DNA of 64,000 nucleotides from Candidatus Kapaibacterium sp. Its GTDB lineage: Bacteria > Bacteroidota > Ignavibacteria > Kapaibacteriales > UBA2268. Below, one piece after another: positions 2,208 to 41,418 of this stretch. The position numbers and the translations under genes are program-made. Location: contig JAMLHE010000004.1 of assembly GCA_023957315.1 (NCBI GenBank), positions 186,001 to 250,000 on the forward strand, in the 5' to 3' direction. The notes under the pieces were generated by a model that was given only the letters and a program-made list of their open reading frames with translations, was not told the DNA's origin and made no database searches. Position 1 is the first letter of the stretch. The number at the start of each line of letters is the position of its first letter.

Positions 2208-4649
2208 ATGAAATTTTCATTGAAGTTTTTGTTGGTGTTAGTTCTTGTAGTTTTTTTGATAAGCCCTGTTGTGGCTGCTGATATCAAAGATGATGGTCCT
2301 GAATTGCAAATCATCGGCGGAGTAAACGCTGATATTGAGGATTATCCCTGGCAAATAGCCATTTTTACTGTGGATGCTGATGGAAATTTGGAAGAGCAAA
2401 TGTGTGGCGGCTCTATAATTGACCCATTTTGGATACTAACAGCAGCACATTGCGTTCTAGAAGATGCTCATAAAACGCAAAAGATTGTTGCTCATATCAC
2501 TCGACGCTCTCAACCCGACCAAGGGCAAGTTATTGAAATTTCGGATTACATTATTCACGAGGGTTTCGATACCGAAATTATTCAAAATGATGTAGCATTG
2601 CTCAGACTTGCTTACCCTATTGACACATCAAAATTTGGTTCAAAACCTATCCGACTTCTTTCGCCTGATGAAGAACAAAATGGATTAATTTCTCCCGGAA
2701 CGATGGCTACAACTACAGGATGGGGAATGACAACCTACGGAGGGGATGCATCAGAATGGCTCCAAGTCACATCCTTGCCGATTATTTCTTTAGAAACTGC
2801 AAATCAATGGTTCTCAGAAACTAATGTGCCAATTGAAGTAACCACAGATATGTTACCTTGCGGATACGAGGAAGGCGGGAAAAGTAGCTGCCATGGCGAT
2901 AGTGGTGGTCCATTATTTGTCAAAGATAATACAGATACTTGGGCACTTGCCGGCATCACTTCTTGGGGTGCAATTTGTGCGGGAGTAAAGCAACCTGCTG
3001 TTTATACCCGAGTTCCTTATTTTTATGATTGGATTATTTCTCACTCCAAACTTGGCATTGATGATGTGCCAACCGAAAACGATTACGTCGAAAATGTTAG
3101 AATGATTATTCCAAAAAATGTTTACTCGTGCGATGATTACACAAATTTTGGAGATGTTCTTATCAGAAATATGGGTTTGAATGATTTATCAAGTTTTGAA
3201 ATAATTGTCAAAACCGGCAGCTCACCTGATAATATTACAAAAACCGAAAGTCAAGTTATTACTTTGGAAAAAAGTTTACCTCCGATGGGTTCTAAAAGAA
3301 TTCCACTCCCAAATATTCATCCTGACGATGTAGGTAGAAACTATATCGAAGTCGAACTCAGTAAACCTAATGGTAATAATGTTGTCCCAAATTCTTCTAA
3401 AGGTCAATATTTTAATTATTCCGGAATCACCCCCCTTGTACTTAGTATTGATTTGGAAGAAGTATCACAGTTGGAAATTCAGGTGTTTTCTCTTGACAAT
3501 GAGTCATCGAAAAGTCTTGCAACATTTATGTCTGATGATGCCGGTAAAAAGCACCAATTTGATAATTGTCTTCCTGAAGGTGAGTATCATTTATTTATAG
3601 ACGGTGATGCAAAAGGCTCCTTTGAAATGAAGATAAATCACGAAGGAACTGACTATTTAATTGGAGAATCTTTTTTAACTGATTATTTACAATTTAATTT
3701 AACTTTACCTTTCGTTCCGTCTTATGATATTGTTGTCGAAATCCCTACTGATTTAGAAAACGACACAACTTTCGTTTGTGACATCAATGAATTTAATAAT
3801 GTCGAATACTTATTATTGTATAATATTGGTTCGCTGCCCAATCAAAACATTACCATTAGGACTACCATCAACGGTGTTGTGTCTGATTCGCTACTTGACG
3901 GAAAACTTTTCTATCAAAAATACATAGGAATACCATTAGATAAAAGTAAATGGCGAATTGGCGAAAACACTATAAGATTTGAAGTTGTTGATTATGATAA
4001 CATAGAAAGTGATTTAAATCCGGAAAATAATTTTGCTGAAAGGAAATTTCATATCGTCGAAACTCCACAAATAGCAACTATTGAATGGAAAGGCGACGAC
4101 TATCACTGGAGTAAAAGTTTTTATATTCTAAACTCTAAAGGGGAAATAGTCATGATGCAAGATGAGTTACCCGAAGATAGTTTTGATTATACAGTTTGTC
4201 TTCCGGACGGTTGCTATACATTTATTCCAATAGATTATTTTGAAGAGGAAGCTACTAATGAAACGGCTTTAGTCATGAAAAGAATGGATGGTTCCATCAT
4301 TTTCGAGATTAGCGGGCAGGATTTTGTCACAGGTAAAATAGTTGATTTCTGTACCTCGCCAACAAGCGTGGAAGATTATTCGCCCGAAAAATTATTAATA
4401 TACCCCAATCCGGCATCGGAGTATATAGAAATTAATGCTACTATCAACCCTACGGTTAACCGTAGGGATGATGAATCTTTTGACATCAATATTTTCACCA
4501 CACTTGGCGAAATTGTAATGACAGCCCCTTCGACAGTGAACTATAATGGCTCAGGGAATCAAAGTGTGAGAATTGATATATCTCATCTGCCAACGGGATT
4601 GTATTTCGTTAGGATAGGCGACCGTTTTGAAAAGTTTGTGAAGTATTGA
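2208..4649 (+). CDS. Secreted S1-family serine protease with T9SS C-terminal sorting domain
   Basis: Predicted extracellular chymotrypsin-fold protease (813 aa). A signal peptide (residues 1 to about 24, ending VVAA) is followed by the mature start IIGGVNADIEDYPWQ. The catalytic triad is visible: H81 in TAAHC, D128 in QNDVALLRL and S232 in CHGDSGGPLF. The S1-pocket position six residues before the catalytic Ser is Ser (S226), not the Asp of true trypsins, so a chymotrypsin- or elastase-like preference is inferred. The middle (about 290-720) holds CARDB-like beta domains. The last 85 residues (LLIYPNPASEYIEI ... GLYFVRIGDRFEKFVKY) are a typical type A T9SS sorting signal, implying export through the outer membrane with C-terminal processing. 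An unusual insertion in that domain is coded by a DNA palindrome. Confidence 0.93.
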   Translation: MKFSLKFLLVLVLVVFLISPVVAADIKDDGPELQIIGGVNADIEDYPWQIAIFTVDADGNLEEQMCGGSIIDPFWILTAAHCVLEDAHKTQKIVAHITRRSQPDQGQVIEISDYIIHEGFDTEIIQNDVALLRLAYPIDTSKFGSKPIRLLSPDEEQNGLISPGTMATTTGWGMTTYGGDASEWLQVTSLPIISLETANQWFSETNVPIEVTTDMLPCGYEEGGKSSCHGDSGGPLFVKDNTDTWALAGITSWGAICAGVKQPAVYTRVPYFYDWIISHSKLGIDDVPTENDYVENVRMIIPKNVYSCDDYTNFGDVLIRNMGLNDLSSFEIIVKTGSSPDNITKTESQVITLEKSLPPMGSKRIPLPNIHPDDVGRNYIEVELSKPNGNNVVPNSSKGQYFNYSGITPLVLSIDLEEVSQLEIQVFSLDNESSKSLATFMSDDAGKKHQFDNCLPEGEYHLFIDGDAKGSFEMKINHEGTDYLIGESFLTDYLQFNLTLPFVPSYDIVVEIPTDLENDTTFVCDINEFNNVEYLLLYNIGSLPNQNITIRTTINGVVSDSLLDGKLFYQKYIGIPLDKSKWRIGENTIRFEVVDYDNIESDLNPENNFAERKFHIVETPQIATIEWKGDDYHWSKSFYILNSKGEIVMMQDELPEDSFDYTVCLPDGCYTFIPIDYFEEEATNETALVMKRMDGSIIFEISGQDFVTGKIVDFCTSPTSVEDYSPEKLLIYPNPASEYIEINATINPTVNRRDDESFDINIFTTLGEIVMTAPSTVNYNGSGNQSVRIDISHLPTGLYFVRIGDRFEKFVKY
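4448..4467. repeat. Perfect 20-bp palindrome inside the T9SS domain coding region
   Basis: CCCTACGGTTAACCGTAGGG is its own reverse complement. It encodes part of the segment NPTVNRRDD, which interrupts the conserved beta-strand spacing of the sorting domain (between EIN and FDINIFTTLGE). It looks like an in-frame insertion of a small palindromic element. Confidence 0.7.
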
Positions 4650-4657
4650 TATTAATG

Positions 4658-4682
4658 TGCTGTCTTTGTTACAAAGGCAGCA
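4658..4682. repeat. Palindromic repeat variant after the protease gene
   Basis: TGCTGTCTTTGT-T-ACAAAGGCAGCA is an inverted repeat with one mismatch just after the protease stop. It is a sequence variant of the CTGTCAGTTGT palindromes in this region. It could act as a terminator-like hairpin, but no T-run follows. Confidence 0.5.
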
Positions 4683-4698
4683 CGGCAGGAAACGCAAA

Positions 4699-4790
4699 GT
4701 TCGTAAATAGTTCTATTCGTCATTCTGAACCGAAGGTGAAGAATCAAGTTTTAAAATACATGGATTCCTCACTTCGTTCAGAATGACGAG
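4699..4790. repeat. 92-bp MITE-like element, copy 1
   Basis: Begins GTTCGTAAATA and contains 13-bp terminal-type inverted repeats CGTCATTCTGAAC (4718-4730) and GTTCAGAATGACG (4776-4788). A copy of the same length lies at 5745-5836 and differs at only a few positions. It has no coding capacity. GATTCCTCACTTCGTTCAGAATGAC-like repeats are widespread in bacterial genomes, but the mobilising enzyme is not visible here. Confidence 0.75.
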
Positions 4791-4797
4791 TAAGTAT

Positions 4798-4829
4798 TTT
4801 CGTCTTTGTAACAACTGACCTGACAGGGA
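4798..4829. repeat. Palindromic GTAACAACTGAC repeat, copy 2
   Basis: TTCGTCTTTGTAACAACTGAC followed by CTGACAGGGA closely matches the segment at 5714-5742. It is a member of the same dispersed family and sits just upstream of the lipoprotein gene. Confidence 0.5.
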
Positions 4830-4867
4830 CAGGAAGTTAGATTGCTCATTAGCAAAGAGGTGATTTG

Positions 4868-5629
4868 ATGTTGAGAATAAGTTTGCTTACTTTAATTATT
4901 TTAGTGGCATTGAACGGGTGCTATTCTCCCAAGCCTGTTTATCGCTTGCAAGTCGCTGACCAAGAGCATATCAGCTGGAGATACGGCTCGGAATACCTTA
5001 CGATGAATTATAACAGATTGCATCTCGAAGCTGCCTATATCGAATCCTACGACGGTTTTCATGTTTTCTTTGTTACTGTAAGTAACGAATCAGGCTTGAA
5101 AGCCGTTGTTGACCCTGCAAATTTCTTTTATGTAGTTGATAAAATTGACCCTTACCTTGAAAAGAAACCGGATATTCAAGAGGGCGATATTGTTTTGGCA
5201 GACTCGCCGGAAGAAAGACTGTTAAAAATCGAAATGGATTTGTCGAATCAAATTGCATCGGACAAAAACATTGTTGCTCGCCAAATACTTACCGGCATAG
5301 TTAGCTCTGTAGCCGATGCCGCTATAGCAAATGCTGTTGGGGGCGATGATGAAGACATAGAAGAGACCCTCAGTGAGCGACAAGCCCAAAGAATGGAAAC
5401 CTACAGAGTGGATAGAGAGAACAGCAAATTGCTCATAGTTTCTATGGCGGAAAGGAAGCAATTTTGGGCTACCGAAGTTCTCCGAAAAACAACTTTATTT
5501 CCCGGTTACGAGGTCGGTGGCTATGTCTTTTTCAAACATTATGATGAAATTGAACGAATGACAATCAATTTCAAAATCGAGGGAATCAGCTACCCGATTA
5601 CATATTTGCAAGTGGTATATAAACCGTAA
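4868..5629 (+). CDS. Hypothetical lipoprotein
   Basis: 253 residues beginning MLRISLLTLIILVALNGCYS, a lipoprotein signal peptide with lipobox LNGC (C18). It is probably anchored in the inner or outer membrane. The start is set by AAAGAGG at 4853-4859. An in-frame TTG three bases upstream is less likely. The body has two beta-rich segments around a Gly/Ala-rich hydrophobic stretch (about residues 135-155) and an acidic linker (GDDEDIEETLSE). I do not recognise a named family. It stands alone between two copies of a MITE-like repeat, so the gene with its flanks could have been moved or duplicated by them. No function is assigned. Confidence 0.8.
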   Translation: MLRISLLTLIILVALNGCYSPKPVYRLQVADQEHISWRYGSEYLTMNYNRLHLEAAYIESYDGFHVFFVTVSNESGLKAVVDPANFFYVVDKIDPYLEKKPDIQEGDIVLADSPEERLLKIEMDLSNQIASDKNIVARQILTGIVSSVADAAIANAVGGDDEDIEETLSERQAQRMETYRVDRENSKLLIVSMAERKQFWATEVLRKTTLFPGYEVGGYVFFKHYDEIERMTINFKIEGISYPITYLQVVYKP

Positions 5630-5677
5630 TAGACGCTAAAAGAAGATTCTCAGCATATTAGATTTTCTCAATTTCAG

Positions 5678-5704
5678 TGCTGTCAGTTGTTACAACTGAC
5701 AGCA
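5678..5704. repeat. Perfect palindrome of the CTGTCAGTTGT family
   Basis: TGCTGTCAGTTGT-T-ACAACTGACAGCA is a perfect 13-bp inverted repeat around a single central base. It lies 48 bp after the lipoprotein gene, and a partial copy follows at 5714-5742. It is the best-preserved member of the family seen at 1552 and 4798. Confidence 0.75.
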
Positions 5705-5713
5705 TTGAAATAT

Positions 5714-5742
5714 TTCGTCTTTGTAACAACTGACGAGACAGG
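5714..5742. repeat. Palindromic GTAACAACTGAC repeat, copy 3
   Basis: Near-identical to 4798-4829 and immediately followed by the second MITE-like copy. The pair 'palindrome repeat plus MITE-like element' is thus partly shared between the left and right flanks of the lipoprotein gene, though in a different order on the left. Confidence 0.5.
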
Positions 5743-5744
5743 GA

Positions 5745-5836
5745 GTTCGTAAATAATTCTATTCGTCATTCTGAACCGCAGGTGAAGAATCAAGTTTTAA
5801 AATACATGGATTCCTCACTTCATTCAGGATGACGTA
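5745..5836. repeat. 92-bp MITE-like element, copy 2
   Basis: Same orientation and length as 4699-4790. The left inverted repeat CGTCATTCTGAAC (5764-5776) is intact, while the right one (5821-5834, CATTCAGGATGACG) carries substitutions. It fills most of the gap before the AraC-type regulator. Confidence 0.75.
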
Positions 5837-5897
5837 TGATTCTTTTTTTATCAAAATCTTTTGTCAATCTATTTCATGATAAAAACGTCATGTATTT

Positions 5898-6458
5898 ATG
5901 AAACTATTTGTCAAAAATATGGTTTGCAATCGTTGCATAATGGTTGTCAAAAACGAACTTGATGCAATCGGCATTATGCCATTAAATGTTGAGTTAGGTG
6001 TTGTGAATTTTGACAGAGATTTGACAAATTCGGAGAAACAATTAGCGAGTGAAACTCTGTATAGATTCGGTTTTGAAATTATTGACGATAAAAAAAGTCG
6101 TTTGATTGAGCATATCAAAACCTTGGTAATTGAATTGGTACACTACAAAGACAACGATTTGAAAACCAATTTGTCGGAATATTTGAGCCGTCACCTCAAT
6201 CATGATTATAATTATATAAGCAATTTGTTTTCGGAAGTCGAAGGCAAAACTATCGAAAAATATTTCATAGCCCAAAAAATCGAAAGAGTCAAAGAATTGA
6301 TTGTATATGATGAATTGTCATTGAGCGAGATTGCATTTCGGATGAATTATTCAAGCGTTGCATACTTGAGCAATCAATTTAAGAAAGTAACAGGGCTAAC
6401 TCCAAGCCATTTCAAAAATATTAAAACCATAAAACGTAGTCCTTTGGACAAAGTGTAA
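5898..6458 (+). CDS. AraC-family regulator with N-terminal metal-binding-like (HMA-like) domain
   Basis: 186 residues. Residues 1 to about 70 resemble a heavy-metal-associated domain with a CNRC motif (C10/C13), the usual position for Cu(I)-binding cysteines. Residues about 90-178 form an AraC-type double helix-turn-helix (KIERVKELIVYDELSLSEIA, then YLSNQFKKVTGLTPSHFK). Such short HMA-AraC proteins sit beside copper exporters in many Bacteroidota. Its position 110 bp upstream of a CopA-type ATPase, on the same strand, suggests copper-responsive control of the efflux genes; this is inference. It has no separate ligand-binding domain as in sugar-sensing AraC proteins. Confidence 0.85.
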   Translation: MKLFVKNMVCNRCIMVVKNELDAIGIMPLNVELGVVNFDRDLTNSEKQLASETLYRFGFEIIDDKKSRLIEHIKTLVIELVHYKDNDLKTNLSEYLSRHLNHDYNYISNLFSEVEGKTIEKYFIAQKIERVKELIVYDELSLSEIAFRMNYSSVAYLSNQFKKVTGLTPSHFKNIKTIKRSPLDKV

Positions 6459-6568
6459 ATCTTACAAATCTTTCAACTAAAATTGTAACATATTTAGCTC
6501 TCTATGAGGCTAAATTTGTATCAAGATTAAAATCAATTTTAATATTTACATTTTTCAAAGGCACGAAA

Positions 6569-33009: not shown

Positions 33010-33773
33010 GCTTTTACTACCTTTTTCTTATTTAAAACAGCCTTTACAACTTCTTTCCTTAGCTCAGGGCTATACTTTCCCATATCAGGTTTATAAACCT
33101 TTCCCGGCTCGAAGTCAAATGCTTCACGTTCGGCTTTGAGAGTAGCTAATTTCGGATCACTTAATATTTTGTCAGATGTTGATAGCTCGTAACCACCTTT
33201 TTGAAACTCAGCTTCTGTCATCGGAACAGCTGAGCAATCACAACCAAATCCAACAGGCGGAAACAGTTTAGCATCTTCTACCTTAAACACTTTGCCGTCC
33301 AATTCGCTATGTTCATGCCGTTTAGTGTTTCGTTGAATTTGACTCCAACGCCAATACGGATGAGTGTCTTTTCGACGATTTAAAGTCTCGTAAAAGCCTT
33401 GTGAATGGGCTACTTTCATATTTGTGTCAAGAGTAACCTTAAAGCGATTGCCAGACCCCGTCCACCCTCTTTTTTGTAGCTTTTCAGTTAACATAGCATT
33501 CGCCTGAGCAAGCGGAATTCCCTGCTCTTTCATTTCAACAACTGCATTGAAAATATCTTGCAGAAAATCTGCTCTTACAATCCCTGCCACAGTAAAAGCC
33601 GTATCATGAGAAGCATTTCTAATCTTTAGCCATTCATCGGCAGTAACCAGATTACGCCCTCTAAGCAACAAATACTTTAATGCTTTTTCAGGTTTACTTT
33701 TCAACAGTTGAAATAACAATTTTTTATTTAACATTTCCACCGCCTTCAACCCTGCCCAAACCCTCACTAACAA
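33006..33773 (-). CDS. Phage head morphogenesis protein (Mu gpF/SPP1 gp7-like)
   Basis: 255 residues. The segment VTLDTNMKVAHSQGFYETL with YWRWSQIQRNTKRHEHSELDGKVF and PPVGFGCDCSAVPMTEAE is the usual minor-head-protein module (conserved R..H..L.G and a PP.G..C.C motif). Minor head proteins of this type bind the portal and enter the capsid. It overlaps the portal gene by 50 bp. The 255-residue length is shorter than Mu gpF, fitting the minimal module. Confidence 0.82.
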   Translation of the reverse strand: MLVRVWAGLKAVEMLNKKLLFQLLKSKPEKALKYLLLRGRNLVTADEWLKIRNASHDTAFTVAGIVRADFLQDIFNAVVEMKEQGIPLAQANAMLTEKLQKRGWTGSGNRFKVTLDTNMKVAHSQGFYETLNRRKDTHPYWRWSQIQRNTKRHEHSELDGKVFKVEDAKLFPPVGFGCDCSAVPMTEAEFQKGGYELSTSDKILSDPKLATLKAEREAFDFEPGKVYKPDMGKYSPELRKEVVKAVLNKKKVVKA

Positions 33774-35226
33774 ATAACAGATGCTCTAACATCTTGACTA
33801 ATTTATCATTTTCCAAGTCAGGATATAATTTAAACAGCTTACTTTCAACTTCTTCATAGCTATTTGTCCCCTCAAACACTTCAGAAACAACTTTTAACAT
33901 TTCTTCACCTATTACACCCAATTCCTCAGCTTGCTCATCATGTTCGTTAAAAGCGGGTGTTTCTTGCTTAATTTCAGGTGCTTTTGGTTCTTCCGGAATA
34001 TAAAACTCATCTTCTTTCAAACCGTATTTTTTGTAATGTTCCTTAGTGAAAACAATCTTACCTGTACTAAGCAATTTCGAATCCCTTTCGGCTAATGCCA
34101 AATTTACATCGTCTTCCTCGTACATCCCGAAATATGGCATACGCTCAACATTTTCAAAGTTATAATCAATTAGCCATTGAATAAGCGTATTAAAAGTTTG
34201 TTCAATCAAACGCATATCACTTTCAACAATTTCTTGCCTTACGTCCATATGAACTTTTCCAAGTGCAAATGTACCTTTATCGCCTTGCTCTGTACTTAGC
34301 GTTTGTGACAGAATCGCTTTGGAGATTTCAGCATTCATAAAAGCTACTAATTGCTTATAAGTTTCACCCGATTGAGTACTGCCGGCATTAATAGCCTCAA
34401 TCTTTTCACCTGCCTCATCATCTAAAGTGAATACTCCAGAACCACCACCGATTAAAGAAGCTAAAGACGCTGCCAAATCTTCAGCAGCATAACTCGGATT
34501 CGTTTTATCCAATATACCAATCAAGTACGGAGCTCCAAACTTTTCAGAGTATCTCGTCCAGAACTCCATAACAGCTTTTTTATAAGTCCATGGCCAAAAG
34601 CAATTAGCTAACACTCCCCGACCGTAAGGATTCCCGCCTGTATCGCCATGTTTAACAACAATAAACTTCCGCGAGTGCGGTACAGTTCTTTGAGCGTTTT
34701 TTGAATATACGAGATTCTCGTCAGGGTCGAACTTAAACCAATGTGGTGGTTTGCCGATAATAGCACTTGGGATAAGGAAATTCCCTTTCCAAACCTCATT
34801 TTCTACATCCAACGTTCCGACTTCATGCCAATATACTTCCATTGGTTTGAAGCCATACAAAACAGCATCAAGCATCTCATCAATCACTTTGTACAGATTT
34901 AGCTTAGAGAACAATGCTTTGATGAACTTGCTTTCCTTTGTTGGTTCTAAACCTCTGTCAATATCCCATTCTAAGCAAAGATTACCCGCTTTTCGAGATT
35001 CAACACAACTCCTGATATGGCTATCATACAGCAGATTGTAATAAGCATCAATACCTAACCTTTTTTTATTCAATACTTCATCAGGATTTTGCAATTCGCC
35101 AAATGCCATTTCGACGAAGTCAACACTTGCAACAACACCCAACATACCATCAGTTTTTGTCGGTTCTCTTTTGGCTTCTTCTTTTGTTGGTAAGTTTTTC
35201 TTTCCAAAAATATCTGAAAATTTCAT
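33724..35226 (-). CDS. Portal protein (Mu gp29-like, DUF935)
   Basis: 500 residues. The dodecameric ring at the head vertex through which DNA passes. DUF935-type features: YYNLLYDSHIRSCVESRKAGNLCLEWDI, then LDAVLYGFKPMEVYW, and FWTRYSEKFGAPYLIGILDKT; later STEQGDKGTFALGKVHMDVRQEIVESDMRLIEQTFN. It shares one base with the TerL stop and overlaps the gpF-like gene. An acidic C-terminal tail (about 415-500) is typical of portals. Confidence 0.9.
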   Translation of the reverse strand: MKFSDIFGKKNLPTKEEAKREPTKTDGMLGVVASVDFVEMAFGELQNPDEVLNKKRLGIDAYYNLLYDSHIRSCVESRKAGNLCLEWDIDRGLEPTKESKFIKALFSKLNLYKVIDEMLDAVLYGFKPMEVYWHEVGTLDVENEVWKGNFLIPSAIIGKPPHWFKFDPDENLVYSKNAQRTVPHSRKFIVVKHGDTGGNPYGRGVLANCFWPWTYKKAVMEFWTRYSEKFGAPYLIGILDKTNPSYAAEDLAASLASLIGGGSGVFTLDDEAGEKIEAINAGSTQSGETYKQLVAFMNAEISKAILSQTLSTEQGDKGTFALGKVHMDVRQEIVESDMRLIEQTFNTLIQWLIDYNFENVERMPYFGMYEEDDVNLALAERDSKLLSTGKIVFTKEHYKKYGLKEDEFYIPEEPKAPEIKQETPAFNEHDEQAEELGVIGEEMLKVVSEVFEGTNSYEEVESKLFKLYPDLENDKLVKMLEHLLFVSEGLGRVEGGGNVK

Positions 35227-36719
35227 TATAATTGCCCTTGATAAATTGATTCTTCTTGTCTATAATTTGTTAATTGTCTGGTAGAAACCTTATTAGTATT
35301 CGCCTGTAAAGCTCTGAAATGAGGTTCAAGCCTTTGTAGCATGATTGTTAGCGTATCAACTTGGTCTTTGAATTTAGAACCCGGAAACTCAGCATGTTCG
35401 GATATGAAGTCATCTAACCAATCAGCACCGTCAGGTAAAAACACTAAGCCTCTTTCAACTTTAGGCGATTGTTGATGCGCTCTAACCACCTTATCCATAG
35501 TTCCAACTTCTTTGATTGGTAGCTTAGTTTCACGTTTTAAACTCTGTATTAAACTCCGTCCACTCGCTGCTTTTTCAATGGCGATATATGTAGGGTCATG
35601 TTTAACATATTGCACTTTTGCCTCTTTCAACAAGTCAGGATATAACAGCCTTCTTTTGAATCTATCCAAGATGTAAAAGCCGTTGATGTTTACTCCACCT
35701 GTCAGACAGACCGAATAAGCGTTGTTTTCGCCTTCTTCGTATGCAGTATCCCAAACTTGTATCACCAAATCCAACGGCGGTGCAATTTTGAAACGTCCCC
35801 ACCAAGCGGGATTGAATATCATGCTTTCCGGGTCAACAGGATTTTGCTTAATTTGCGCCGAATAGCCATAACTACCCATTTCATCCCTAATGTCATTCAG
35901 AGCAATACGATTCATTCTTACAGGGTCAAACAACCCATCAACATAATGGCTTCTTAATTCAGCGGGTTTTACATCTTCGGTTAGCTCTCCGGGTAAGCAT
36001 ATATGTTTAACATTCGGTCGTTTTAACATCTGTGCCGTAGGGTCATCTGCATGTAAACGTTGCATAACCAAGATTGTCAAGGTTACATCATTGTTTCGCT
36101 TACGGCGTGGCAAGGTTTGTGATAATACTCGATTAGCTTTATTTCGCTTTGCAGTTGAATGAACTTCTTCGGCACTTATAGGGTCATCACCTACGATTAT
36201 ATCAGCGTGCTTACCTGTAATTGTGCCATAGATACCTGTTGCTGTTCGAACGCCAAAGTGATTGTTTTCATATTCTGCTTTAGTATCTCTATCCAAGCGT
36301 AATACTAAATCAGGGTACATAGCCCGAAACAAATCCGAACGAAGTATATCACGAGACTTCAAAGCAAAATCTACTGCCAAATTTGCTGAATAACTTGCTG
36401 TTAAAACTCGCATTGATGGGCGTAAAGTCCAAGCCCATACAGGCAGGTATATTGAACAAATACGGCTTTTTGTCGAACCCGGAGGCACGTTAATACACAA
36501 GTCGTACAACTTCGGTTTACCCTCAGCAACTCGCTTAACAGCTGTTTGAATTTCATCACATAGGTATTTGATATGCCAATTGTCAACTAAGGGAGAATCT
36601 TCGATTGTGTCCCAATAATAGCGTAGGAAGCTGTAAAAGTCATCTTTGAAGATTTCAGCTAACAGCCTGATTGAAACATCTGATATTTGCATTATTTTAT
36701 CAAGATGCAACATTGACAC
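35226..36719 (-). CDS. terL: Terminase large subunit
   Basis: 497 residues. ATPase and nuclease that packages phage DNA. The ATPase domain has an unusual Walker A, NVPPGSTKS (77-85), a Walker B ADIIVGDDP (172-180), and a coupling region near LTILVMQRLHADDP. The RNase H-like nuclease domain starts IQVWDTAYEEGENNAYSV, with likely metal ligand D324. It overlaps the small-subunit gene by 20 bp. The GSTKS form (S in place of G-K spacing) is known from Mu-like and related terminases. Confidence 0.93.
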   Translation of the reverse strand: MSMLHLDKIMQISDVSIRLLAEIFKDDFYSFLRYYWDTIEDSPLVDNWHIKYLCDEIQTAVKRVAEGKPKLYDLCINVPPGSTKSRICSIYLPVWAWTLRPSMRVLTASYSANLAVDFALKSRDILRSDLFRAMYPDLVLRLDRDTKAEYENNHFGVRTATGIYGTITGKHADIIVGDDPISAEEVHSTAKRNKANRVLSQTLPRRKRNNDVTLTILVMQRLHADDPTAQMLKRPNVKHICLPGELTEDVKPAELRSHYVDGLFDPVRMNRIALNDIRDEMGSYGYSAQIKQNPVDPESMIFNPAWWGRFKIAPPLDLVIQVWDTAYEEGENNAYSVCLTGGVNINGFYILDRFKRRLLYPDLLKEAKVQYVKHDPTYIAIEKAASGRSLIQSLKRETKLPIKEVGTMDKVVRAHQQSPKVERGLVFLPDGADWLDDFISEHAEFPGSKFKDQVDTLTIMLQRLEPHFRALQANTNKVSTRQLTNYRQEESIYQGQL

Positions 36720-37188
36720 GCTCCGTTAGCTTAGCCAATATCATAAGTTCATTAACATTTAATTTCATGATTTGCTGTATTTCTTCTTCCGTCAGCGGTG
36801 TTTTATTGCCTTCGTCAATAACAACTCCACCATAGCCTCTATCTTTCGCCTTAGCTCTCAGAAACTCCATTAATGCTCTAAGGTCCGGTTTATGTTCAAT
36901 CTCAGTTATTTCTAATAGCTTTACTTTCTTTCCTTGTGGTGTTATTACTTCTCTGGTCTTAGTTTGCGTTGTCTTGATGCCTGTAAACAGCTTAATCAGA
37001 GTACTTTCACCTAAATCTATCAAACTTTCCTTTATTTCTTCTATCTTTTCGGCAAATTCCTTATCGTCTTTCATCCAAATGTAGTAAATGGTTCTGCTGA
37101 TACCTGACTTACGGCAAGTAACAGCGACATTTAAGGCATTCTTAGGAAAGAGTTCGAGAAATATTTGCTTTAGCTTATCAGTTGACAT
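36700..37188 (-). CDS. Terminase small subunit-like HTH protein
   Basis: 162 residues from MSTDKLKQIFLEL; a GTG nine bases upstream would add three residues. The N-terminal HTH (NALNVAVTCRKSGISRTIYYIWMKDDKEFAEKI) is of the kind used by phBC6A51-type small terminases to bind pac or cos DNA. The C-terminal part contains an oligomerisation helix and the sequence EHKPDLRALMEFLRAKAKDRGYG, common to the family. It lies just upstream of and overlapping TerL. Confidence 0.82.
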   Translation of the reverse strand: MSTDKLKQIFLELFPKNALNVAVTCRKSGISRTIYYIWMKDDKEFAEKIEEIKESLIDLGESTLIKLFTGIKTTQTKTREVITPQGKKVKLLEITEIEHKPDLRALMEFLRAKAKDRGYGGVVIDEGNKTPLTEEEIQQIMKLNVNELMILAKLTERVNVAS

Positions 37189-37224
37189 TTTAAACACTTA
37201 CAGTATTTAGTTAATAAATTATGT

Positions 37225-37586: not shown

Positions 37587-37805
37587 ATGCGATACACACA
37601 AAGTCAAATTATCAAAGAATTGGCGTCGAGAAATGTTTTCATCACTCGACAAGCACTTCACGCCCACAAAAAGAAGTATCTTAAGCCCAAAACACACTAC
37701 ATTGAAGATACCGTTACCCTGTTTACACAGCGTGGTTACAACAAAGTGATTAAGTTTTATACTGAGAGTTGGAATCATAATAAAGACCGCATTTCTGACG
37801 ATTAA
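37587..37805 (+). CDS. Small putative HTH protein
   Basis: 72 residues. MRYTQSQIIKELASRNVFITRQALHAHKKK followed by HYIEDTVTLFTQRGYNKVIKFY has the look of a MerR- or excisionase-like winged helix. Its last 56 bp overlap the 3' end of the convergent radical SAM gene. The ribosome-binding site is weak. Confidence 0.55.
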   Translation: MRYTQSQIIKELASRNVFITRQALHAHKKKYLKPKTHYIEDTVTLFTQRGYNKVIKFYTESWNHNKDRISDD

Positions 37806-39102
37806 TCTTGTAAATAACATTGTTGTCATCATCTTTACCCACAGGATATAACACACCCTCAAAGTAGCTGTACGGTGATTTGTGATTCTTTGGAGTATTC
37901 CAAATCTCTTTCACATATTCGTACAAGGTTTGCGTATATCTCTGAGCTCTGACTTTGTTTGAATTAGTATTAAACCCTTGTGCATTGTAGAATTTCACGT
38001 CATATGCGATGTTTCGTAAGTCTTTTTCAATGTCTTTCCAATACACCAATCCATTTTCACGATTCCGGGCTACAATCAAGGCTTCTGTAAATTGTCCTTG
38101 ACTTACATTCCATTCCGGAGGAACTCCACAGCAGCTTGTAAAATCACATTTTTCTTTATGATGAGCGTCTGACACATAGAACCGCATACCTAAGCTATGG
38201 GCTATGTTTCGCATATCTTCGATAATAGGTCTCTTGAATTGATAGTTTAACCGCCTGTAGCCTGAACCTTTGGAATTTTCTTTGTAGAAATCCCATAAGT
38301 CAACACCAGCCCACTTTGACATTTCCTTATACTTGCTTTTTAAACGTTCATCTGCTCTTGTTTCCAGACAAAAGAATTCGGTTGTGATGCTATCTGCACC
38401 GGCTTGGCTTGCTCTTGTGATTGTTTCTTTGTAATCGTCTGATATTCCAACGATGTAAGGTCTTAACCTTAATGTAACTTTTATGCCTGCATCGCTTAGT
38501 TTCTTGATAACTTCAAACCGTTCTTTCGGACTTGCAACTCCCCTTTCAATGGCTTTTGCTTTCATGCTGTCAGAAGTGATAATACTGATTTTGAAATGCC
38601 AATTATGAGCGTGCCGTTTGATAATATCAAAATATCGGTTGTCATTGACAAACCAAGTGCCTTTTGTCGAGAATGACAATGGGTAATCGTATTGGTCGAA
38701 TATCTTCATGAACTCCAGACTTGTACCGTACCGCTTCTCAAAACCGTCAAAAGCATCTGCCAAACCACCCCATTGCATTACTGTTTTATTTCGGACATAG
38801 TTGTAAAATTGCAGATTATACTTAGCAAGTTTTTCAGGTGTACCGTTTAGGGAGTGTTCAAGGAGTGTAGCCACTTTTCGGGGACTTGCTGACTTGACTT
38901 GTCGTTGTAGATACATCTTCGAACTGTGGCTTTTCTGATTGAACGAAAAGCAATAAAGGCAGTTGAAACTACAGCTTGAATAAGTGTCAAATGTCATCGG
39001 CATTGAGCAATCACATAACTCGGCTGACCAACGTGGAGATTCGTAATCTTGGGGTATCAGGTTTTTATTATTTGGCATTTCTGACCCTTGCTGATTAACC
39101 AT
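37750..39102 (-). CDS. Radical SAM enzyme (spore photoproduct lyase-like)
   Basis: 450 residues (a start at MPNNKN, eight residues in, is equally possible). The [4Fe-4S]/SAM motif CSFNCLYC has C44, C48 and C51. Preceding Cys residues (ELCDCSMP) and a late cluster CDFTSCCG may bind a second centre. The barrel segments (WHFKISIITS, KVTLRLRPYIVG) and overall pattern resemble the SplB-like radical SAM proteins of phages. It overlaps the P-loop kinase gene by 46 bp and is in a three-gene unit with a ParB-like protein. A role in phage DNA base modification is inferred from the context. Confidence 0.85.
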   Translation of the reverse strand: MVNQQGSEMPNNKNLIPQDYESPRWSAELCDCSMPMTFDTYSSCSFNCLYCFSFNQKSHSSKMYLQRQVKSASPRKVATLLEHSLNGTPEKLAKYNLQFYNYVRNKTVMQWGGLADAFDGFEKRYGTSLEFMKIFDQYDYPLSFSTKGTWFVNDNRYFDIIKRHAHNWHFKISIITSDSMKAKAIERGVASPKERFEVIKKLSDAGIKVTLRLRPYIVGISDDYKETITRASQAGADSITTEFFCLETRADERLKSKYKEMSKWAGVDLWDFYKENSKGSGYRRLNYQFKRPIIEDMRNIAHSLGMRFYVSDAHHKEKCDFTSCCGVPPEWNVSQGQFTEALIVARNRENGLVYWKDIEKDLRNIAYDVKFYNAQGFNTNSNKVRAQRYTQTLYEYVKEIWNTPKNHKSPYSYFEGVLYPVGKDDDNNVIYKINRQKCGLYYDSNSQYKT

Positions 39103-39533
39103 TTTACGTTATTTAGTGTTTTTGTGCGAGTAGCTTTTAGAAATTTTAGGCTAATTTGGCTTTTTGCTTGTTTCAAACGTTCAAAACTTACCGAAATAGG
39201 GCAATATATAGCCACTATTGATTTTTTATAGCTTAGGGTAAGTAAATAGGCGAAAAAACTATTATTGTTAATTCTATCCCCCTCTACGACGGTTTTTTTA
39301 AAACCCCTATTTTCACTAATAAACTGTTTAATTTTGGGTAATGAGTTATACGCCAAAGTGTCTGTGCCTTTGCAACGGTCTTCGATTGTATAGTCTCCAA
39401 TAAGGCACGTCACGCCGTCCGTAGTGTGCTTAATTGGTTCAGTCACTAACTTCATTTTGTCATTAAAGTAATTCTTCATTACATAGTCAGTTTTGCCTGC
39501 TCCGGCTTGACCTATCACAACTTCAATTGTCAT
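39057..39533 (-). CDS. P-loop kinase-like protein
   Basis: 158 residues. Walker A is GQAGAGKT (8-15). GDYTIEDRCKGTDTL is followed by VVEGDRI (a Walker B-like strand). This G-x-Y...GTDTL...EGDRI combination is, from memory, that of small phage kinases near DNA-modification genes, including the 5-hydroxymethyluracil DNA kinase group. It sits between the ParB-like and radical SAM genes with overlaps on both sides (4 and 46 bp). Substrate not known. Confidence 0.75.
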   Translation of the reverse strand: MTIEVVIGQAGAGKTDYVMKNYFNDKMKLVTEPIKHTTDGVTCLIGDYTIEDRCKGTDTLAYNSLPKIKQFISENRGFKKTVVEGDRINNNSFFAYLLTLSYKKSIVAIYCPISVSFERLKQAKSQISLKFLKATRTKTLNNVKWLISKGQKCQIIKT

Positions 39534-40162
39534 TCAGATACCTGTAACATATCGGACTTAATTTCTATGTCGCCGTTGATAAGCCGTGAATAGCCTTTGA
39601 TTTTTGGTTCAGCAAGTCCGATGTTAGCTAAGAAAGTTTCTGCAATTTCTTTGGTACTGAATGCAATCTCGCAAAGTATGCTTCTACCGTCCTTGTCACC
39701 CTCTACGTGTTCCATGTCACTTGGTTCAATGTCAGTTCCATCATCGAAACTGAAATTATCATCCAAGTCAAGCAATACGTTAATTTCGCCATCTTCAAAA
39801 CCTGTCAGAGTTAAATCAACACCTAAATCCCTTAAGTCTAACAATTCAGCTCTTAACTTTTCCATATTCCAATCTGATTCGCCTGCTTTGTTGTCTGCTA
39901 TTCGAGCCGCTTTCTTCTGTTCTTCAGTCATATCATCGCGTACAATAACAGGTATTAAAGGCTTTTCTAAGTAGATTGAGGCTAACTTGCGCTTATGCCC
40001 TTTAATTAAAATTTTATTTTCATCAACCACCACAGGTACATCAAATCCAAATTCTTTGATTATATTTGCTAAGGTGATTATTTCTTCATCAGTATGAATT
40101 TTTGCGTTATTCTCGTAATCAATCAGTTCATGCGGGTCTAAGTATATAAGTTGTAATCCCAT
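39530..40162 (-). CDS. ParB/Srx-fold protein
   Basis: 210 residues. ParB N-terminal domain: YLDPHELIDYENNAKIH, then KILIKGHKRKLASIYLEKPLIPVIVRDDMTEEQKKAARIADNKAGESDW. In many phages this domain is fused to or paired with a DNA methyltransferase; here no methyltransferase follows, and the C-terminal 90 residues are of unknown type. It is the first gene of the minus-strand unit with the kinase and radical SAM enzyme, upstream of the terminase block. ParB-fold proteins can bind or hydrolyse NTPs (CTP in ParB, ATP in others) or act as nucleases. Confidence 0.82.
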   Translation of the reverse strand: MGLQLIYLDPHELIDYENNAKIHTDEEIITLANIIKEFGFDVPVVVDENKILIKGHKRKLASIYLEKPLIPVIVRDDMTEEQKKAARIADNKAGESDWNMEKLRAELLDLRDLGVDLTLTGFEDGEINVLLDLDDNFSFDDGTDIEPSDMEHVEGDKDGRSILCEIAFSTKEIAETFLANIGLAEPKIKGYSRLINGDIEIKSDMLQVSE

Positions 40163-40332
40163 TCCTACTCTCCAATAGTTGTAAATACTGAAAAGTACAA
40201 CAAATTAAACTCACAATTAAATGCGTGGTTTTCTGCGTTAAACACTAATCACAACTTAGTTTCACACTTTGATTATTGCCGTTCATATCCCCTACATTCG
40301 TAGTGAATGTAAATTATAATTTGGACAATATT
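40163..40332. promoter_or_regulatory. Divergent late control region
   Basis: The 170-bp gap separates the minus-strand block (ParB, kinase, radical SAM, terminase, portal) from the plus-strand block (protease, capsid, tails). Promoters for both directions must be here or close by. I see only AT-rich sequence and no unambiguous promoter. Confidence 0.45.
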
Positions 40333-41418
40333 ATGAGTTGGATACCAATTTTCAAACCCGGTACTCATACCGATGCGGCAGGCAATACACGGACTTGGTC
40401 TGATGCTGATGTACGCAACATGGTAAAAATGTACAATGAACAATCACCTGCCGAAAAGCATGATGCACCTGCCGTCAAAGGACATCCTAAAACTGATGAC
40501 CCAGCACTCGGTTGGGTGGATTCGCTAAAATACGAAGGTGGTCAACTTTGGGCGAAACTCCGTGACATGCAAAAATCATTTGTAGAAGAAGTGAAAAGCG
40601 GAGCTTATAAGAAAGTTTCTGTTAGACTTTATCCAAATAATATGCTTCGTCATGTGGGATTCTTAGGTGCTGTTCCCCCCGCTATCAAAGGTTTAGGTGA
40701 TGTAGAATTGGCAGAATATGAAGGCATTTTCTTTAATGAAGAAGATGTTGCACTAAGTGATATTGCTTTTTCAATTGCTGAACCAGAACCTGAACCAAAA
40801 ACTGTTGTGGTTACTCCTAATGAGAATCAACCACCTGCACCACCAACAAACACAAAACAAGAAAATAACTTTAATCAACATGGAGATTACGTAATGGATT
40901 TTAATGATTTAAAAGATTCGTACTTCGCAAAGCTGAAAGGTCAAGTAAGTGATGATACATACGCTAAAGCATTCGCAACCTTCTCAGAAGTGTTTAGCGG
41001 ATTTAAGCCAAAAGCAACTACTGAAAAGCCTAAAGATTCCGCTTTTGCTCAATCTGACGAATACAAAGCGATGTTAAAGCGACAAATGGAACTCGAATTA
41101 AAAACACGAACACATGATATCGCTGATTTTATCGCGAATGAAACACCACTTGCAGGCATTGCTAAAACGAAGGCTTTCCCTGTGATAGAAATGGCTTATA
41201 GAATTGACAATCCGGGCGACTATCAAGACTTCCCACTTGACTTGAATTTCAGTGAAGAAGACAAAAAGAAACCGGCAAATGAATTAGTCAAGGACTTTAT
41301 GAGAAACCTACCTAAAATTGTTGAATTCAATGAATTTGGTAATGGTGGTACTGACAATACAGGCAATCACAACGAAGATATTGAAAATGCAGTTGCAACA
41401 GCTCAAGGAGTGAAATAA
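40333..41418 (+). CDS. Prohead protease (Mu gpI-like) with fused scaffold domain
   Basis: 361 residues from MSWIPIFKPGTHTDAAGN; a TTG 57 bases upstream is rejected. The N-terminal half (to about 150) is the Mu I-type protease (WIPIFKPG, KGHPKTDDPALGWVDSL, YKKVSVRLYPN, LGAVPPAIKGL). After a Pro/Gln linker the C-terminal part is scaffold-like, charged and helical. An internal ATG at 40894 with its own ribosome-binding site would give the scaffold alone, as in Mu I/Z and lambda C/Nu3. It is the first gene of the plus-strand late block. Confidence 0.85.
   Translation: MSWIPIFKPGTHTDAAGNTRTWSDADVRNMVKMYNEQSPAEKHDAPAVKGHPKTDDPALGWVDSLKYEGGQLWAKLRDMQKSFVEEVKSGAYKKVSVRLYPNNMLRHVGFLGAVPPAIKGLGDVELAEYEGIFFNEEDVALSDIAFSIAEPEPEPKTVVVTPNENQPPAPPTNTKQENNFNQHGDYVMDFNDLKDSYFAKLKGQVSDDTYAKAFATFSEVFSGFKPKATTEKPKDSAFAQSDEYKAMLKRQMELELKTRTHDIADFIANETPLAGIAKTKAFPVIEMAYRIDNPGDYQDFPLDLNFSEEDKKKPANELVKDFMRNLPKIVEFNEFGNGGTDNTGNHNEDIENAVATAQGVK
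40894..41418 (+). CDS. Nested scaffold protein (internal start)
   Basis: In frame with the protease gene (561 bases after its start). GGAG at 40882-40885 lies eight bases before the ATG, and the product (174 residues, MDFNDLKDSYFAKLKGQVSD...) begins where the protease linker ends. This matches the nested protease/scaffold arrangement known in Mu and lambda. The internal start is predicted from the sequence. Confidence 0.65.
   Translation: MDFNDLKDSYFAKLKGQVSDDTYAKAFATFSEVFSGFKPKATTEKPKDSAFAQSDEYKAMLKRQMELELKTRTHDIADFIANETPLAGIAKTKAFPVIEMAYRIDNPGDYQDFPLDLNFSEEDKKKPANELVKDFMRNLPKIVEFNEFGNGGTDNTGNHNEDIENAVATAQGVK

Follow-up and report, generated by a model that had tools for sequence, protein, structure and literature searches.

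Background

To our knowledge, only two familiar routes lead to hydroxymethyl pyrimidines in phage DNA, a nucleotide hydroxymethylase that acts before replication and TET/JBP oxidation that takes place after it. The latter requires O2, and we know of no radical SAM enzyme that hydroxylates thymine directly without O2. Related cassettes may be discussed by Iyer (2013); in the openly licensed literature we found no description of a radical SAM enzyme in the place of TET. Phages Margaery and Ottawa share a ParB-TET-KIN-terminase layout, in which the Tet_JBP matches (E 7e-7 and 1e-6) lie under the curated cut-off of Pfam, and Rhodococcus phage Tonitrus carries a cassette of the ParB-TET/JBP-(ADDT)-kinase-terminase type (PMC11955845).

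The ParB-KIN-rSAM locus

The window (the whole 64-kb stretch of DNA that was analysed) contains a minimal ParB-KIN-rSAM cassette, set in a Mu-like prophage. The three overlapping minus-strand genes named in the original prediction were confirmed as open reading frames: a ParB-like protein as the first cassette gene (39530..40162, 210 aa), the P-loop base kinase KIN of the Ploopntkinase3 / 5-hmdU-DNA-kinase-like type (39057..39533, 158 aa), and the radical SAM protein rSAM, the proposed base-functionalising enzyme (37750..39102, 450 aa), with overlaps of 4 bases between ParB and KIN and 46 bases between KIN and rSAM. The rSAM gene perhaps starts at 39078, because in its second copy in the same host genome a stop precedes the internal ATG (residue 9). 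Immediately downstream of rSAM, also on the minus strand, lie the genes for the small terminase subunit (terS, 36700..37197; phrog_4044, 2.8e-6) and the large one (terL, 35226..36719; phrog_38, 9e-95). The prophage context further includes a portal protein (33724..35226, minus strand; phrog_113, 1.8e-102) and a head maturation protease encoded divergently from the cassette (40276..41418, plus strand; phrog_976, 2.8e-59). A small ORF of 72 aa on the opposite strand (37587..37805, plus) overlaps the 3' end of rSAM and has a homologue in another locus, L001. All three cassette genes are under purifying selection, with dN/dS values against the second host copy of 0.083, 0.147 and 0.058. In a near-isogenic phage (L157), KIN, rSAM and the C-terminus of ParB are missing while the flanking sequence on both sides is kept, and the 72-aa ORF is broken at the deletion junction.

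The assignment of the first protein to the ParB fold held, with matches to phrog_620 (5.2e-44) and TIGR00180 (3.3e-8); its Pfam ParB_N match is sub-threshold, and phrog_498, annotated as DNA methyltransferase, is matched at 6.5e-35 over positions 37-173 of 633. ParB lies on the same strand as rSAM and at most 6 kb upstream of it in 54 of 56 non-redundant loci, and would bring the enzymes to phage DNA.

Profile searches of the 64-kb window for ADDT (amino acid:DNA transferase), TAGT (TET-associated glycosyltransferase), SPASM-rSAM, GNAT and MetK found none of them, and a 7-sequence TET profile (TET/JBP, PF12851), which recovered its positive controls, had no match among the window ORFs. The M6 hypermodification proteins and one C5-methylase used as single queries, and the ThyA homologue M6 gp58 used with phmmer, gave no match in the window, in runs made without a positive control. 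That the window has no hydroxymethylase, pyrophosphorylase-type or methyltransferase gene had already been observed. The explanation offered for it, namely that a host enzyme provides the first step or that the target is different, is not the best account, since rSAM occupies the place of TET/JBP in sister cassettes.

In the host genome no C5-cytosine methylase (PF00145) was recognisable, and because no source of 5-methylcytosine is seen there, thymine is favoured as the substrate. The same genome encodes two COX1 (haem-copper oxidases), and NrdD was not found in it; shortage of O2 therefore does not explain the use of rSAM in this host. On these grounds a strict rule of 'phages of anaerobes only' was dropped, and only a trend is retained.

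The kinase KIN

As a single sequence KIN gave no convincing family match, and as a single query against IMG/VR it retrieved zero relatives. Its family is Ploopntkinase3 (PF18751), matched by 30 of the 35 aligned members; the window member itself has no match at E 0.01. In this P-loop kinase, first described with a GTDTL...EGDRI pattern, the invariant residues of the family comprise those of Walker A, G-T-D 56-58, E84, G85 and R87. KIN resembles the 5-hmdU DNA kinase HMUDK_HMUD1 of phage M6 (gp54 = PF18748), which it matches with an hhalign probability of 96.8 (E 2.1e-10). The best fold match of the AlphaFold model (pLDDT 96) is the Clostridium polynucleotide kinase 4mde (Z 12.9, 130 aligned, 2.2 A). 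Elsewhere, KIN occurs in ParB-TET/JBP-(ADDT)-KIN-terminase cassettes; TET/JBP is present in 19 and ADDT in 25 of 28 KIN contigs, a set that includes the rSAM loci L127 and L153. Judging from family and context, KIN would phosphorylate a hydroxyl handle on DNA.

The radical SAM protein

The Radical_SAM domain (PF04055) and the CxxxCxxC cluster motif (C44/C48/C51) are present in all 44 members of the rSAM family. The description of this protein as an SplB-like radical SAM enzyme with extra cysteines agrees with our results: C32, C245, C324 and C325 are invariant (44/44), C319 is found in 30/44, and the fold nearest to the model (pLDDT 92.2) is that of spore photoproduct lyase (SPL; Z 19.7, 269-271 aligned, 3.3-3.5 A), followed by the next family at Z 16.2, in a ranking that re-examines Foldseek hits and leaves room for families outside that list. 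At the sequence level, the SPL family PF20903 is matched by 0/44 members at E 0.01, and hhalign of rSAM with a clostridial SPL gave E 0.005 with a probability of 6.8. In this weak alignment, Gly113 of rSAM stands at the position of the SPL H-donor Cys140 (Geobacillus numbering); the H-donor cysteine is not universal among SPLs, as the clostridial SPL used itself carries Ala there. The NCBIfam radical SAM models PA0069 and Rv2578c are matched by all 44 members, and the window rSAM scores far under their cut-offs (61 vs 360 and 59 vs 430 bits). The rSAM profile found nothing relevant among PDB sequences.

Survey of rSAM loci

rSAM proteins form a tight family, encoded by 136 of 139 pattern-matched IMG/VR stretches, and the rSAM cassette family is large and little described in phages; it also occurs in prophages of cultured Selenomonas ruminantium S137 and Bacteroides fragilis S82. 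In S137 (locus L097) the gene order is ParB-ParB-KIN-rSAM-terS-terL. The host and neighbourhood counts omit weak genome matches of 24-30% identity (L120-L124, L126). Among the 56 non-redundant loci with at least 3.5 kb of upstream DNA, tailoring genes are present in 49, of which 22 have TAGT but no kinase/ADDT and 27 have a kinase and/or ADDT but no TAGT. The other 7 lack both types, and no locus combines them. A Fisher p of 7.7e-10 is reported with these branch counts, treating as independent contigs that are not fully so, and the Fisher values compare two sets drawn from different queries.

Of 80 IMG/VR contigs, 50 were tested for TET, C5-methylase, ThyA, TAGT and ADDT: 36 with a length of 20 kb or more and 14 shorter, hand-picked ones. 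TAGT genes above the cut-off lie at most 1.8 kb from rSAM in 17/17 cases (7.4 expected within 5 kb; 3 matches below the cut-off and extra fragments are omitted), and ADDT lies at most 1.2 kb away in 16/17 (5.8 expected within 5 kb), 4/17 of the ADDT matches passing the Pfam cut-off. In L153 rSAM and TAGT are fused into one protein. Thus, the neighbourhoods of these families connect TAGT, ADDT and 5-hmdU-DNA-kinase-like genes to the same rSAM, in line with the original prediction. A TAGT scan started from a single protein returned only its self-match, and a terL scan found one locus. TET/JBP was found in 1/50 rSAM contigs, and a thymidylate-synthase-type hydroxymethylase (PF00303) in 0/50. The C5-methylase matches, 14 rows merged by hand into 9 places for the distance counts, include 6 at 5.3-6.9 kb from rSAM, so that cytosine may be the target in those phages. 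SAM synthetase is encoded close to rSAM in several loci.

Three loci are informative individually. L144 (ParB-TET-KIN-terL) has the layout of the window with TET instead of rSAM. L037 carries ParB-rSAM plus a convergent ParB-TET-ADDT-KIN operon; therefore, rSAM can supplement TET and not only replace it. L127 encodes a divergent rSAM (33% identity, C245 replaced) with KIN and a ThyA-like protein (PF00303, 4e-4); in this phage ThyA could supply the hydroxymethylation, with rSAM acting later.

Proposed function and alternatives

We propose, with a probability of about 0.58, that the cassette hypermodifies bases of phage DNA by the logic of the TET/JBP cassettes, with a radical SAM protein replacing the dioxygenase. 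The idea of DNA hypermodification, already put forward from the window alone, is strongly supported by the TAGT/ADDT/kinase neighbours, by the rSAM-TAGT fusion and by the ParB-TET-kinase-terminase cassettes. rSAM appears to take the slot of TET, because its contigs nearly always lack TET/JBP and ThyA-type genes, and to make a shared handle, because two alternative tailoring branches attach to one constant rSAM; by this analogy it is probably the first-step enzyme. It would abstract hydrogen from the C5-methyl group of thymine in DNA via the 5'-deoxyadenosyl radical, and the resulting thymine-CH2 radical would be turned into a handle that bears a primary alcohol. The simplest such product is 5-hydroxymethyluracil, and a further Fe-S cluster bound by C32/C245/C324/C325 may assist in the step. 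Related phages would instead use TAGT to attach a sugar to the handle, or would phosphorylate it and afterwards couple it to an amino acid through ADDT; in the window the end product would be a phosphomethyl base, or a base finished by genes not recognised there. The modification would shield phage DNA from host nucleases. The terminase-adjacent position, kept in both the rSAM and the TET cassette types, was first taken to suggest action on DNA that is being packaged, but could merely reflect late expression.

More tentatively, and at somewhat less than even odds, rSAM may be a radical SAM hydroxylase for the methyl group of thymine (or of 5-methylcytosine) in DNA, and thus an O2-independent counterpart of TET/JBP. 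It would then represent a separate, widespread route to hypermodified phage DNA and be an entry enzyme of base modification that is common among phages of gut, rumen and sediment. If so, its presence in the place of TET would account for post-replication DNA hypermodification by phages of anaerobic habitats. It would also be a C-H functionalisation of a new type for DNA, and would give phages of Bacteroides, Prevotella, Clostridia, Selenomonas and Methanobrevibacter a further means of counter-defence.

An alternative that we regard as unlikely, yet worth serious consideration, is that rSAM acts late, isomerising or tailoring an attached group as in M6, on a hydroxymethyl base that comes from the host or from an unrecognised enzyme. 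In M6, ADDT, PALP, the 5-hmdU kinase and an SPL-like rSAM, which we take to act late, as an isomerase, adjoin each other in a phage with a thymidylate-synthase homologue, and the combination of rSAM with a ThyA-like protein and KIN in L127, or with TET in L037, fits the same order of events. However, the M6 protein, which adjoins ADDT, aligns with the window rSAM only over the radical SAM core, and the window has no ADDT that would supply an isomerase with its substrate. The constancy of rSAM next to a variable tailoring branch (TAGT vs kinase/ADDT) and the rarity of TET and ThyA in its contigs also argue against a late role.

Radical SAM enzymes carry out many kinds of C-H functionalisation, and rSAM might make a different handle, C-C bonded or methyl-derived, on a pyrimidine or another base, upon which the kinase and the glycosyltransferases act. 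Its chemistry is probably not that of SPL, because of Gly113 at the H-donor site (in a weak alignment) and the four further invariant cysteines, and SAM synthetase near some loci would also suit such a reaction. We nevertheless consider a different handle improbable, as the relatives of KIN, TAGT and ADDT act on, or adjoin makers of, hydroxymethyl pyrimidines in the cassettes described above and in PMC13216743.

The best folds, SPL and Clostridium polynucleotide kinase, would also suit SPL-like DNA repair by rSAM together with RNA/DNA end-repair by the kinase, without any base hypermodification. This is very improbable given the conserved coupling to TAGT/ADDT, the TAGT fusion, the company of TET and ADDT that KIN keeps, and the glycine weakly aligned with the H-donor cysteine; an end-repair role of the kinase and rSAM was rejected on the neighbourhood evidence. 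That ParB, the kinase and rSAM are unrelated cargo that merely shares one late operon is hardly credible, for although their loss in L157 marks the genes as dispensable, ParB-rSAM linkage in the surveyed loci, purifying selection between the host copies and overlapping frames speak against it.

Comparison with known systems

SPL offers the closest fold and acts, as proposed for rSAM, on thymine in DNA, but the rSAM family lacks the SPL Pfam match and has extra invariant cysteines; to PA0069 / Rv2578c all its members are related far under the cut-offs. The M6 thymidine cluster of a Pseudomonas phage resembles the window in having a radical SAM protein and a 5-hmdU DNA kinase related to KIN, and differs in its thymidylate-synthase homologue, ADDT and PLP enzyme, none of which was found in the window. 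The TAGT family, whose glycosyltransferases act elsewhere on glucosylated hydroxymethylcytosine (PMC13216743), provides the other tailoring option in rSAM cassettes and was not found in the window. The ParB-TET/JBP-(ADDT)-kinase-terminase cassettes (Margaery, Ottawa, LilMcDreamy) use a 2OG/Fe(II) dioxygenase as oxidiser, whereas the window has a radical SAM protein and TET was not found in it. As in the window, ParB comes first, a P-loop kinase follows and the terminase is adjacent; the window combines ParB and the terminase neighbour with a kinase predicted from its family to tailor a hydroxymethyl base, and minimal ParB-oxidiser-kinase forms, like its own minimal set, also exist among the TET/JBP cassettes.

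The cassette and its surroundings

The overlapping minus-strand gene trio of the original prediction was recovered as a ParB-like ORF (39530-40162, family assigned by profile), a P-loop kinase ORF (KIN, 39057-39533) and a radical SAM protein ORF (rSAM, 37750-39102), with terS and terL after them. Their surroundings are the head module of a Mu-like prophage, comprising the portal, a head-morphogenesis protein, a head protease and the major head protein. A second copy of the cassette, on another contig of the same genome (L082), shows amino acid identities of 85.7% (ParB), 83.5% (KIN) and 93.5% (rSAM); the dN/dS values between the copies (0.083, 0.147 and 0.058, respectively) show purifying selection on all three genes. 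A stop codon near the annotated rSAM start in L082 suggests that the real start may be an internal ATG. A near-isogenic phage contig from IMG/VR (L157; terL 87% identical to that of the window) has no equivalent of positions 37691-39839: both flanks abut directly, and KIN, rSAM and the ParB C-terminus are missing. Phages can thus do without the cassette, as would be anticipated for a DNA-protection trait. The deletion junction shows a short microhomology.

Family and fold of rSAM and KIN

A single IMG/VR scan identified rSAM relatives in 136 of 139 candidate stretches, and the best 80 of these 136 were carried forward. In an alignment of 44 sequences, all matching Radical_SAM, residues C44, C48 and C51 are invariant, as are C32, C245, C324 and C325; none of these members matches the spore photoproduct lyase (SPL) family PF20903, and the PA0069 and Rv2578c models match members with scores far under the cut-off. 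The fold nearest to the AlphaFold model of rSAM (pLDDT 92.2) is SPL (Z 19.7, 269-271 residues, 3.3-3.5 Å; next family 16.2), and a weak alignment to clostridial SPL places Gly113 at the H-donor position. Overall, rSAM thus combines an SPL-like predicted fold with chemistry that probably differs from that of SPL.

The family around KIN is assigned to Ploopntkinase3 (30/35 aligned members match; the window's own member does not at E 0.01). Its profile matches the 5-hmdU DNA kinase of phage M6 (probability 96.8, E-value 2.1e-10) and also the other kinase type of rSAM cassettes (E-value 2.8e-16); the structure closest to its model (pLDDT 96) is polynucleotide kinase (Z 12.9), with adenylate kinases no more than about 1 Z unit away. 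Scanning IMG/VR with this profile returned 28 loci, 19 with a TET/JBP dioxygenase and 25 with an amino acid:DNA transferase (ADDT) within 5 kb.

Neighbourhoods of rSAM loci

IMG/VR supplied 80 loci and genomes 28 (identity of 40% or more); together with the window's own locus these collapse to 85 non-redundant loci, 56 of which have at least 3.5 kb of upstream DNA and were surveyed. In agreement with the predicted hypermodification system, related genes adjoin rSAM in most of them: a TET-associated glycosyltransferase (TAGT) in 22, a kinase and/or ADDT in 27, neither branch in 7 and both in 0; a same-strand ParB lies upstream in 54. Both branches occur together in one of the 85 loci (L044, judged from layout). 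Pfam scans assign these tailoring neighbours to PF20691 (TAGT, 4.3e-18) and PF18724 (ADDT; 1.1e-23 for L037 and 7.7e-4 for the representative that was scanned). All 17 TAGT matches above the cut-off lie within 1.8 kb of rSAM (7.4 expected within 5 kb), as do 16 of 17 ADDT matches within 1.2 kb (5.8 expected within 5 kb), four of which pass Pfam's cut-off. L153 encodes a 716-aa rSAM-TAGT fusion protein (2977-5127) adjoining KIN and ADDT.

Further Pfam-identified neighbours are a GNAT protein, a SAM synthetase (L028, L029, L043, L109, L112, L115, L117 and others), possibly supplying SAM to the radical enzyme, and a second radical SAM protein with a SPASM domain, beside TAGT- or GT4-type cassettes (L002, L003, L009, L012, L055). 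A cassette-near gene in L024, L040 and L042, whose start resembles an ASCH domain by eye, is a possible reader of modified bases.

Proposed role of rSAM

Relatives of the kinase, ADDT and TAGT elsewhere act on hydroxymethyl pyrimidines or adjoin their makers. The T2/T6 TAGT, according to PMC13216743, puts glucose onto hydroxymethylcytosine that is already glucosylated. Gene content suggests that rSAM most likely makes the shared handle, because rSAM is constant and the tailoring branch variable. The thymine-methyl radical is an intermediate of SPL chemistry; in rSAM it could be oxidised and hydrated in place of SPL's reduction, and the extra cysteines might hold a second cluster. A less probable alternative, that rSAM acts late as in M6, fits L127, where a divergent rSAM and KIN are joined to a ThyA-like protein; among 50 rSAM contigs (36 of at least 20 kb and 14 shorter, hand-picked), ThyA-type enzymes were found in none. 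The L127 genes (divergent rSAM, the 470-aa ThyA-like protein, KIN) form one operon (2653-6510), upstream of which a protein matches the N6_N4_Mtase C-terminus.

The target in the window's phage is most likely thymine, since this base already bears the C5-methyl and is SPL's substrate class, and the host genome (98.36% complete) contains no C5-cytosine methylase. 5-Methylcytosine is a possible target in other phages; such a methylase occurs in 8 of the 50 contigs, in no case within 5 kb of rSAM and in 6 of 9 places at 5.3-6.9 kb.

Hosts and distribution

The names of 24 of the 28 genome loci belong to lineages that we take to be strict anaerobes, as is generally held (four names were left unplaced), which supports an anaerobic trend among hosts of the rSAM cassette. 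Counter to this trend, the window's own host encodes two COX1 genes and lacks NrdD, and its family also includes the Chocolate Pots MAG. The cassette is sporadic, since matches occur in 6 of the 60 related genomes searched (the window's own included) and the full-length family in only two, as expected of prophage genes.

Comparison with known cassettes

L144 (ParB-TET-KIN-terL, genes overlapping) matches the window's layout save that TET stands in place of rSAM. The same arrangement is found in isolated phages: Margaery (ParB-TET-KIN-terminase), Ottawa (ParB-ParB-TET-KIN-terS-terL) and LilMcDreamy, which has ADDT in addition. Their Tet_JBP matches (E-values 6.8e-7, 1.1e-6 and 2.2e-3, respectively) all fall short of Pfam's curated cut-off, and those of L144, L140 and L154 exceed it. 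TET occurs in one of the 50 rSAM contigs, L037, where ParB and rSAM stand opposite an operon of ParB-TET-ADDT-KIN; rSAM and TET can therefore coexist. The cassette type is already known; no description of its rSAM version was found in the CC-licensed literature searched.
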